This document shows positions 4,384 through 39,149 of a stretch of DNA of 64,000 nt, one piece after another. Made by a program: the position numbers and the translations under genes. Where the stretch lies: NCBI GenBank assembly GCA_002787775.1, contig PCUW01000050.1, positions 1 through 64,000 of the forward strand, in the 5' to 3' direction. Position 1 is the stretch's first letter; every line of letters starts with the position of its first letter. The stretch comes from Bdellovibrionales bacterium CG12_big_fil_rev_8_21_14_0_65_38_15 (lineage in GTDB: Bacteria; Bdellovibrionota; Bacteriovoracia; Bacteriovoracales; Bacteriovoracaceae). The notes beneath the pieces were generated by a model that was not told the origin of the DNA, ran no database searches, and worked only from the letters and a program-made list of their open reading frames with translations.

Positions 4384-5309
4384 GCTTTCTTCCTTACTTT
4401 TATCATAAAGCGCCTAGGTGCTGGGTGTCCTTCAATTGTTTTGCTTGGATCTTGTGGGTCAAGTCCATCAATCAATGATTGTGAAGGAGGAGGACACCAA
4501 GCTGTTAACCTCTGTTCTTCAGAAGTTAAATCGCTGTCGCTGATAACTTCGATATCGATAAACTTTGCTTTTTCGGCCCAGGAAACTAAACAGGGTAGTG
4601 TTGGTACGAACCAAACATTACCCATTCTGGCGTAACGGTCCTGAGGGAATAAAGCTATAGATTCTGTTCCAGGAATTCCAATCGTTTCAATGATTGCTGT
4701 ACCACCAGGGACCAGAGCCTCACGTATCGCTAGCAGTTGATGGATAGGAGATCGGTGATGGTAAACTATCCCCATATGAAAGATACAGTCCCAGCTATCT
4801 TTCCATTGATCGACATGCTCAACGCCAAACAGATCAAACTTTATATTTTGAAGACCACTTGCTCTTTGAATGAGTTCATATTGAGCTGCAAAGGGAAGGA
4901 CAGGATCAATACCATGGGCAAGTTCAACACCGAGTTCAGCTAAGCGAAATAAAAAATATCCATTATTACAGCCGATATCTAGAACTTTAGCTCCACAAAG
5001 GTTTCCAAGTTGACCTACTAGTCGGTCCCACTTCATATCACTGCGCCATTCAGCATCGATATGTTCGCCGCAAAGTTTAAAGGGACCTTTTTTCCACGGG
5101 ATCAAACTCTTGGCTGATTCAATCCATTTATCTTTATGTTGATCATTTGAATCGCCAACACAAACGATTCCATTTTGTATTTCAAAATGAGCTTCAATAC
5201 GTGGTAAGGCATCTAAGACGGTTCTTATTCTTTGACCATCTTTGCGTTGCCACCACAAATCGCGCTCTAATTTTAATTGTTCAAAGAAGGTCATTTGATC
5301 GCTAGCCAT
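4380..5309 (-). CDS. cmoB: tRNA U34 carboxymethyltransferase CmoB
   Basis: CmoB transfers the carboxymethyl group of carboxy-SAM to 5-hydroxyuridine at tRNA position 34, giving cmo5U. The 309 residues align with E. coli CmoB from SLIPWKKGPF through EWRSDMKWDRL, the SAM-type loop VLDIGCNNGYFLFRL, HMGIVYHHRSPIHQL, FPQDRYARMGNVWF and the terminal DPQDPSKTIEGHPAPRR. The N-terminus is a little shorter than in E. coli. Two starts are possible: ATG 5309 (19-base overlap with cmoA) or ATG 5294 in an ATGA overlap. It follows cmoA, which makes its cofactor. Confidence 0.96.
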   Translation of the reverse strand: MASDQMTFFEQLKLERDLWWQRKDGQRIRTVLDALPRIEAHFEIQNGIVCVGDSNDQHKDKWIESAKSLIPWKKGPFKLCGEHIDAEWRSDMKWDRLVGQLGNLCGAKVLDIGCNNGYFLFRLAELGVELAHGIDPVLPFAAQYELIQRASGLQNIKFDLFGVEHVDQWKDSWDCIFHMGIVYHHRSPIHQLLAIREALVPGGTAIIETIGIPGTESIALFPQDRYARMGNVWFVPTLPCLVSWAEKAKFIDIEVISDSDLTSEEQRLTAWCPPPSQSLIDGLDPQDPSKTIEGHPAPRRFMIKVRKKA

Positions 5310-37859: not shown

Positions 37860-38231
37860 ATGATACGCCAACTTATTTTGGTTTTAAGCTTATTGTTATT
37901 GGTTGCTTTAAACGCTGAAGCTCGTACTTATATTCAGTGTGCAGGAAGTTCATCTGATCGTGCTGTTGTGAATGTTGATGGCGCAAAGTCCACTTTGTTT
38001 ATGACTTCAGGTGTAGATGATCCAAATGAAATTAGAATTCTAAAGAAAATTAAAATTCACCTTGAAAATGATACTAACGTTGAATTCATGAGTGAAGATG
38101 AAGAGCTATTAGTTTCTGTTCCTAAAACTGCTATTGGTCAGATTTTAAATTATTTCAAAGTGACTCTAACATTTCTTGAGTCAGACTATGACTACGTTCT
38201 AACTTGCTATTCAAACGTATTTAAAGATTAA
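37860..38231 (+). CDS. small secreted protein of unknown function
   Basis: The 123-residue protein has a signal peptide (LVLSLLLLVALNAEA) and a mature ~100-residue beta-rich domain with two Cys (YIQCAGS and VLTCYSN) near its two ends, probably forming a disulfide. The product is likely periplasmic or surface. A GGGGGA site precedes the ATG and a strong terminator follows. No family is recognised. Confidence 0.72.
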   Translation: MIRQLILVLSLLLLVALNAEARTYIQCAGSSSDRAVVNVDGAKSTLFMTSGVDDPNEIRILKKIKIHLENDTNVEFMSEDEELLVSVPKTAIGQILNYFKVTLTFLESDYDYVLTCYSNVFKD

Positions 38232-38256: not shown

Positions 38257-38280
38257 AACCCGCTTAGAGCGGGTTTTTTT
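38257..38280 (+). terminator. rho-independent terminator
   Basis: Stem AACCCGC (38257-38263) / GCGGGTT (38269-38275) with loop TTAGA, then a T-run to 38280. Confidence 0.92.
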
Positions 38281-38339
38281 ATGCCTAAAAAAGCGTCTTA
38301 ATCAAGTTTAAATCCCATAGCTATTATTAAAACTTAATA

Positions 38340-38372
38340 CAGTAATTTATGTAGAAGATTAGTAAATTACTG
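38340..38372. repeat. inverted repeat 1 upstream of the GspG-like gene
   Basis: A perfect 10-base pair CAGTAATTTA (38340-38349) / TAAATTACTG (38363-38372) with a 13-base loop. Confidence 0.8.
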
Positions 38373-38376
38373 ATAT

Positions 38377-38414
38377 TGAATTATAATATTGATATTTTAG
38401 AAAATTATAATTCA
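38377..38414. repeat. inverted repeat 2 upstream of the GspG-like gene
   Basis: A perfect 11-base pair TGAATTATAAT (38377-38387) / ATTATAATTCA (38404-38414) with a 16-base loop. Each arm contains TATAAT or its equivalent, so a -10 element may lie inside (38382-38387 or 38406-38411). Confidence 0.8.
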
Positions 38415-38430
38415 GCATAACAAATTGCAA

Positions 38431-38441
38431 CCGGCCAAGTG
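38431..38441. repeat. left copy of the flanking inverted repeat
   Basis: CCGGCCAAGTG here is repeated in reverse complement at 39074-39084, beyond the GspG-like gene. Similarity continues inward with GCTGG and GGAACC. The surrounding DNA is AT-rich, so the GC-rich match stands out. Confidence 0.7.
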
Positions 38442-38445
38442 TGCT

Positions 38446-38482
38446 GGAACCATTGTTGGAACCATTGTTTGGAACCATTGTT
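38446..38482 (+). repeat. tandem repeat, three copies of GGAACCATTGTT
   Basis: Exact copies lie at 38446-38457, 38458-38469 and 38471-38482 (one extra T before the third). They sit directly before the ribosome site of the gene at 38502. Their number could vary between strains. Confidence 0.9.
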
Positions 38483-38501
38483 GAAATTAAAAGGTGTGTA
38501 A

Positions 38502-39035
38502 ATGCATAAATTATTAAGTTGGCACAAGATATTAATTGTTTTTATTGTGACTCTCTTTTTGGTCGGAGGTTTGAGCTACTATTTTTATCGCAACTATTTG
38601 GATGATAGAACGACTACAGAAGAAGCTAATGTTGGTATTGTCAATTTGCGAAGGGGAATGACTAAAATAGCAATTGCTAAATCTAATATGAGGGTAGCTT
38701 CTTATTTAGTTGGATACATATCAAAATGTAAGCGTTTTCCCGAAAATCTTCAGGGTTTTTATAAACCAATCGAAGGTGAAAAACCCACGTCTTGCAACCC
38801 TTTCCCTGTTAATGTTAAAAAACCTTGGCTTGATCCATGGGGGCGAAGTTATGAAATTCGCTATGATCGAGATCGAAAAAAACTACAGATTAGAAGCCTG
38901 GGGCGATATTGGTGGTGGCCTTGGGATAATATTCAAGATGAAACCAATCTCGCAGTTCCTACTGATTTAGTTGAACCAGAAAGACAAAAGTGTGATCAAG
39001 GATTGGATTGTATTTATAGCCGCGGTTGGCATTAA
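38502..39035 (+). CDS. GspG-like (major pseudopilin C-domain) membrane-anchored protein
   Basis: The 177-residue protein has one N-terminal membrane helix (~9-29) with a short HKLLSWHK lead. There is no prepilin peptidase motif (GFTLIE). The C-terminal half has KPWLDPWGRSYEIRYDRDRKKLQIRSLGR, which mirrors the DPWGxPYxYR...LxSLGxDG region of GspG type II secretion pseudopilins. CNPFP and CDQGLDC may form disulfides. AAAAGG precedes the ATG. No other gsp gene is near. It is framed by inverted repeats. The function is an inference from one motif. Confidence 0.62.
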   Translation: MHKLLSWHKILIVFIVTLFLVGGLSYYFYRNYLDDRTTTEEANVGIVNLRRGMTKIAIAKSNMRVASYLVGYISKCKRFPENLQGFYKPIEGEKPTSCNPFPVNVKKPWLDPWGRSYEIRYDRDRKKLQIRSLGRYWWWPWDNIQDETNLAVPTDLVEPERQKCDQGLDCIYSRGWH

Positions 39036-39042
39036 CCTACAA

Positions 39043-39091
39043 AATTCTTCCAAAATAGGTTCCAAGCCAGCTTCACTTGGCCGGAAGAATT
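39043..39091. repeat. nested hairpin holding the right copy of the flanking inverted repeat
   Basis: Outer stem AATTCTTCC (39043-39051) / GGAAGAATT (39083-39091); inner stem CCAAG (39062-39066) / CTTGG (39076-39080). CACTTGGCCGG (39074-39084) is the reverse complement of 38431-38441. Confidence 0.75.
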
Positions 39092-39122
39092 GTTTACGTA
39101 AAAGTGCGTGGGAAATTATTGG

Positions 39123-39149
39123 AAAAAAAAGACCCGCTTGAAGCGGGTC
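39123..39149 (-). terminator. rho-independent terminator of the bolA-grx operon
   Basis: GACCCGC (39131-39137) / GCGGGTC (39143-39149) with a T-run on the reverse strand (A-run 39123-39130), just after the grx stop. Confidence 0.9.

Follow-up and report, generated by a model that had tools for sequence, protein, structure and literature searches.

The GspG-like gene of the window, the 64,000-nucleotide stretch of contig PCUW01000050.1 of Bdellovibrionales bacterium CG12_big_fil_rev_8_21_14_0_65_38_15 that was analysed, is found in a block that is missing from a same-genus genome. Because the whole block is missing from this nearest relative, the locus is considered a real mobile-DNA scar, and one of a broadly known kind. 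Members of a dispersed repeat family, here called arms, flank the gene. The explanation that we favor, with moderate confidence, is that the gene is an accessory one whose block is flanked by miniature elements of transposase origin. These elements would form a TIRtron-like family that probably arose from a Y1 (HUH) transposase on contig C22 of the same genome. This is a further repeat family of transposase origin, from a lineage that appears to be near Bdellovibrio, to judge from one named protein match.

The repeat pair and its locus

The CCGGCCAAGTG pair pointed out by the first-pass annotation is exact, at 38431-38441 (+) and 39074-39084 (-), and encloses an ORF of 177 aa (38502-39035). 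The inward similarity of the two copies (GCTGG, GGAACC) is also confirmed in the letters. Taken alone within the window, the 11-mer pair is only mildly unusual, with 2 matches at one mismatch or fewer, compared with a shuffle mean of 0.30; 2 matches were reached in 4 of 100 shuffles. It is the existence of a dispersed family that marks the pair as non-chance. Going outward from the gene, the arm sequences are GGTTCCAGCACACTTGGCCGG (from 38451 leftwards) and GGTTCC..CACTTGGCCGG (from 39057 rightwards); the left arm is 51 bp upstream of the gene and the right arm 22 bp downstream. The features of the locus are as follows.

38258-38274, + strand: intrinsic terminator stem left of the insert, ACCCGCTTAGAGCGGGT then a T-run, serving the gene that ends at 38231
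38283-39126, no strand: inserted block, approximate edges, absent from the same-genus genome
38284-38417, + strand: copy of a PilZ gene 3' end and downstream DNA, joined to the left arm; matches contig C42
38418-38451, - strand: left arm, L type, GGTTCCAGCACACTTGGCCGGTTGCAATTTGTTA, interior side leftward; 32.7 bits with a profile that contains this arm
38445-38486, + strand: three GGAACCATTGTT-type direct repeats (repeat family D1) adjoining the left arm
38502-39035, + strand: GspG-like gene, 177 aa, with T2SSG and TIGR01710 matches below cut-offs
39057-39113, + strand: right element, a compact dimer composed of an arm GGTTCC..CACTTGGCCGGAAGAATTGTTTACGT and a degenerate inverted second arm
39132-39148, - strand: terminator stem right of the insert, that of the glutaredoxin gene, ACCCGCTTGAAGCGGGT after an A-run

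The left arm and its outer flank recur at C22:3563-3654 (82%) and C22:4862-4909 (90%). The right element (20.6 bits) has the layout of C23:71236-71288 and of a same-genus copy in L077/L085. Copies of GGAACCTATTTT, which resemble the three GGAACCATTGTT-type repeats of the window, adjoin the arm at C22:1854.

A dispersed family of arms

Further copies of the repeat are found in the same genome (3.3 Mb in 68 contigs; assembly 92.7% complete) by 11-mer, pattern, and profile searches. The exact 11-mer occurs nine times in the 3.3 Mb, and one of these occurrences, inside a coding gene on C16, is not a family member. The pattern AAGTGTGYTGGAACC has 25 matches at two mismatches or fewer, compared with nine for a reversed control. 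A profile built from 15 arms was run over nine genome stretches to which pattern matches pointed, rather than over the whole genome, and it detects 14 arms above 20 bits on five contigs: six on C22, three on C23, two on C42, one on C33, and two in the window. The profile includes 13 of these 14 arms; the right-hand arm of the window, which is not included, is recovered at 20.6 bits (E 5.6e-5), and the best score in shuffled DNA is 8.4 bits. Further arm copies are present in one same-genus genome, and the overall copy number is low.

Some arms stand alone and others are paired in compact elements of 35-55 bp; the arm heads in this family are GGTTCC or AGTTCC. The compact elements are those at C22:1821-1854, at C23:71236-71288, and from C23:73402 onward, the right copy of the window, and the same-genus copy in L077/L085. 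At 18 tabulated arm edges, the nearest exterior ORF presents its 3' end in 11 cases and its 5' end in seven; for one of these seven (C23c), the chosen ORF is on the opposite strand and overlaps a same-strand ORF that ends at the site. All three L arms face the 5' sides of genes or gene fragments.

The 12-mer ACACTTGGCCGG has 14 matches in 10 genomes other than this one and the same-genus genome. These were rejected as members, as the longer motif is absent by eye, and are taken to be chance or coding matches; one of the three same-genus matches is likewise of this type.

The GspG-like gene and its paralogues

The GspG-like gene encodes a protein of 177 aa with an N-terminal hydrophobic segment that is recognizable by eye. 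It matches the Pfam family T2SSG (E 0.0031; 18 bits, cut-off 21) and TIGR01710 (E 0.019; 15 bits, cut-off 88.85), so the curated cut-offs for membership among the GspG major pseudopilins are not reached. Two further copies are found in the genome, both on C22 (45% and 34% identity), and all three are bracketed by the same arms, with the L type upstream and the R type downstream. In two of the three copies an arm lies 17-22 bp past the stop codon. The DNA between the left arm and the gene is different in each copy. The C-terminal 69 columns of the three copies are 51-77% identical (53, 35, and 42 of 69), and the N-terminal parts are 23-26% identical (24/102, 24/94, and 25/108).

No GspG-like gene is found in the 58 relatives searched. 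One outside relative of the protein occurs in the Bdellovibrio sp. CG22 MAG, where a pattern scan that allowed up to six substitutions finds no arms. The gene there (L083:6004-7769) precedes one for a membrane protein and, by eye, a HigB/HigA-like toxin-antitoxin pair. Searches of solved structures with the three paralogues give no credible match, and the viral contigs searched contain no relative of the protein. An AlphaFold model made from two sequences has a pLDDT of 43.8, which is too poor for a fold search.

Two Cys-rich ORFs on C22 (L024:1425-1841 and 4524-4874) are 37% identical and belong to no Pfam family. Each is directly upstream of a GspG-like gene and starts at or in an arm, and both resemble 3' fragments of a longer gene. 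An arm that represents a conserved coding join within such a longer gene was considered and rejected, because the two ORFs read through the arm in different frames.

An empty site in a same-genus genome

The corresponding stretch of the same-genus genome (L147) preserves the gene order of the locus: two upstream genes (65% and 69%), glutaredoxin (83%), BolA (83%), DUF420 (83%), and a helicase-like gene (75%; named DinG by eye). Between the upstream gene and glutaredoxin are a short spacer and one terminator, with neither a GspG-like gene nor an arm. Among 24 glutaredoxin loci from 37 genomes, only the present one has a GspG-like gene within the fetched stretch.

In the window, two terminators with the same stem surround the block, and no other such stem occurs in the 64 kb (mean by chance, 0.04). 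L147 has one terminator, to which both can be aligned. The paired terminators may represent a target duplication, some 25-30 bp long, or may have arisen independently. Both checks that the first-pass annotation had proposed favor mobility, because copies of the repeat are dispersed and the locus is cleanly empty in the same-genus genome, which is the one close relative compared. The block, of about 840 bp, would have entered an intergenic terminator region in the lineage of this genome, and a gain in this lineage seems a better account than a loss in the relative.

A captured PilZ gene end

The DNA to the left of the left arm derives in part from a host gene. Positions 38287-38412 match C42:121942-122067 (126 bp, 78%, E 1.4e-22), and the match starts in the last codons of a PilZ gene on C42. 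On C22, this piece recurs with a longer portion of the gene end, flanked by an R arm and an L arm (82% match to C42 over 76 bp). The C42 gene ends in VASSSKKAA, and the C22 copy reads MATSSKKAA before its arm. The captured end can be assigned to the PilZ gene because the same-genus orthologue (71% identity) ends alike, in VSSSSKKAA. The C42 DNA past the stop codon has no similarity above shuffles in the same-genus genome, so captured host DNA is certain only for the last PilZ codons. A run of N at L024:3663-3693, inside the C22 element that carries the PilZ end, is an assembly gap or a masked stretch.

A candidate source transposase

The first-pass annotation remarked that no transposase is present. 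This holds locally, for the ORFs of the window as judged by eye and for Y1 transposases on the contig, but a candidate is found elsewhere in the genome. The start of contig C22 lies inside a Y1 (HUH) transposase gene (PF01797, E 7.6e-7, 29.7 bits, cut-off 23). The encoded protein also matches the REP-associated tyrosine transposase family NF047646 (E 9.2e-19) at 67.8 bits, under the cut-off of 80; the gene is truncated by the contig end. The gene starts at ~506, and an R arm (C22:626-591) is found about 100 bp upstream; C42 repeats the arm, the upstream region of the transposase gene and its first codons (143 bp, 89%). The only other Y1 gene in the genome, on C48, is accompanied by a different repeat, GTGCCATGCACC... 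Because the contig end removes the 3' end of the C22 gene, an arm on its far side is out of sight; the evidence linking arms and transposase is the one upstream arm, together with the sister loci.

Relatives of the C22 transposase are found in 28 of 59 genomes, this one included. Of the 30 sister loci listed, 20 were scored for inverted repeats flanking the transposase gene. A score of at least 14 is reached at 14 of the 20, compared with 8 of 380 mismatched upstream/downstream pairs; the other six have no clear flanking repeat. The transposases of sister genera carry inverted repeats of their own, with outer-edge starts of GGTACG, GTGCCA, GGTTCC, and similar sequences. Such flanking repeats agree with what the consulted parts of the TIRtron/TIRYT literature describe (PMC3733652, PMC6006769). 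In the same-genus genome, whose assembly is 74% complete, arms are present and no transposase is detected. The RAYT/TIRYT-type gene on C22 is the likely source of the arm family, and we infer that its product made the arm copies.

Polarity of the arms and a proposed origin

At transposase loci, the arm reads GGTnCC.. at the outer edge and proceeds inward to the transposase. This comparison places the interior of an element beyond CCGG, and the GspG-like gene of the window therefore falls outside both arms. A pair of arms at C22:6023 and C22:4862 has the opposite facing, with a winged-helix gene and a weak nucleotidyltransferase-like gene between them, as would be expected for a true non-autonomous element. 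The inserted block passes the left arm by ~150 bp and the right arm by some tens of bp. The mobile unit is not arm-gene-arm.

The C22 transposase probably spread miniature noncoding copies in trans, many of them to the 3' side of genes, and these copies would be the single arms and the compact two-arm elements of 35-55 bp. The GspG-like gene would lie between two outward-facing remnants, namely the left arm with its PilZ end and the compact two-arm element on the right. Rather than being cut at the two inner arms, the block perhaps entered by recombination or was carried within a larger mobile segment.

Relation to known systems

As in TIRtrons (Di Nocera, De Gregorio, and Rocco 2013, PMC3733652), Y1 transposases related to RAYTs are flanked by terminal inverted repeats at 14 of the 20 sister loci scored, with one arm visible on C22, and the repeat family is of modest size, with singles, dimers, and clusters. 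Both a RAYT-like Y1_Tnp transposase and dispersed repeat copies are found here. In contrast, the GGGGWSAS motif that the consulted description gives as common to TIRtrons is not seen; arms here start with GGTTCC, GTGCC, GGTACG, and similar sequences. Nor does that description, to the extent consulted, mention the capture of host gene ends or accessory genes bracketed by repeats, both of which are features of the present loci.

The sister loci resemble RAYT systems with REP/BIME sequences, in which the transposase gene lies between two inverted repeats (Nunvar, Huckova, and Licha 2010, PMC2817692). The portion of that report consulted notes that REP copies are sometimes concentrated near the rayt gene, which is reminiscent of the arms here, and that a rayt 3' end was taken into inter-REP DNA, a precedent for gene-end capture. 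Compared with REP/RAYT systems of the GTAG type, the arms lack a GT(A/G)G head and a significant single-arm hairpin, and are few. The compact inverted doublets resemble REPINs as presented in the consulted part of Bertels and Rainey 2011 (PMC3116915), but copy number is low here and, among the compact sites folded, only C22:1819-1856 folds clearly. In open-licence literature, no paper joining RAYT and Bdellovibrio was found, and nothing on RAYT with a passenger gene appeared relevant by title and the start of the abstract. With its clean empty site and captured gene end, the locus can serve to test whether transposases that look domesticated still mobilize DNA beyond their own tiny repeats.

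Alternative explanations

The arms might serve only as portable homology, in which case unequal homologous recombination moved or duplicated the GspG-like block without a transposase. Long, identical or near-identical arm flanks on C22 (41 bp at 100% and 70 bp at 90%) fit this idea, as does the C22 order of element, gene, and element in constant orientation. However, the empty site in L147 has no arm, so that, apart from the terminator stem, no homology for recombination is visible there, and we consider this explanation rather unlikely.

Another proposal is that the arms are the true ends of an arm-gene-arm cassette that a transposase excises and inserts in trans, close to the small cassette moved in trans of the first-pass annotation. 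The L arms upstream and R arms downstream of all three GspG-like copies, the arm 17-22 bp behind the stop codon in two of them, and the clean absence at the same-genus site would be expected for such a cassette. However, the polarity is the reverse of that at the transposase loci, the block overruns the left arm with the PilZ end and also overruns the right arm, and the sequence from arm to gene on the left is unlike in each copy. This explanation is therefore unlikely. What survives of the earlier proposal is movement, given the further copies, the clean presence and absence, and a candidate transposase on C22 that could act in trans; the repeats as cassette ends are not supported by the polarity and the block edges.

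More speculatively, a transposase of the RAYT/TIRYT kind might run an integron-like trade, in which units of a gene and its 3' arm are copied in trans together with neighboring host gene ends. The units could include the GspG-like genes, the gene pair at C22:4862-6023 inside correctly facing arms, and a lipoprotein-like gene on C42. On this view, the window block, which reads as the right part of an element, the gene, and the left part of an element, would represent a circle of gene and element that had reopened within the element. We regard this scheme as improbable.

Integron-type gene cassettes, with an attC-like site behind each gene, are a very improbable explanation. Arms are often shortly past the stop codons of small accessory genes in one orientation, as on C23. 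However, no integrase exceeds the TIGR02249 cut-off in the 92.7%-complete assembly, and the best match lacks profile positions 180-236. Sites of the attC type have the core triplet AAC/GTT, but the arms show no such conservation, with GTT or GCT and CAAC or CAGC.

Paired regulatory structures at both ends of one mRNA, the other suggestion of the first-pass annotation, would suit arms 51 bp upstream and 22 bp downstream of a gene, but they are equally hard to credit, as the arms fold no better than shuffles, copies flank many other genes on either side in places without a GspG-like gene, and no Rfam family is matched at its gathering score. For the left copy, folding is poorer than in shuffles (z 1.67), and the hairpin said to contain the right copy is weak (z -0.29). 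Single arms in general do not fold significantly compared with shuffles, and among the compact sites folded only C22:1819-1856 is clear (z -3.64). At a permissive threshold, Rfam gives sub-gathering, chance-like matches, mostly around terminators.

Other observations on C22 and C23

Contig C22 also includes a region that resembles an integrative element (L024:8431-15314), with a tyrosine recombinase, a TraD-like coupling protein, and an ORF6N gene nearby; no tRNA or tmRNA was found on the contig. On C23 (L052:10525-12312), several ORFs have the motif GGDGNLYRYV.NDP, which we take to be the end of an RHS-type core, followed by differing C-terminal parts like displaced toxin ends. These ORFs adjoin small genes that are possibly immunity genes, and repeat arms are found among them.
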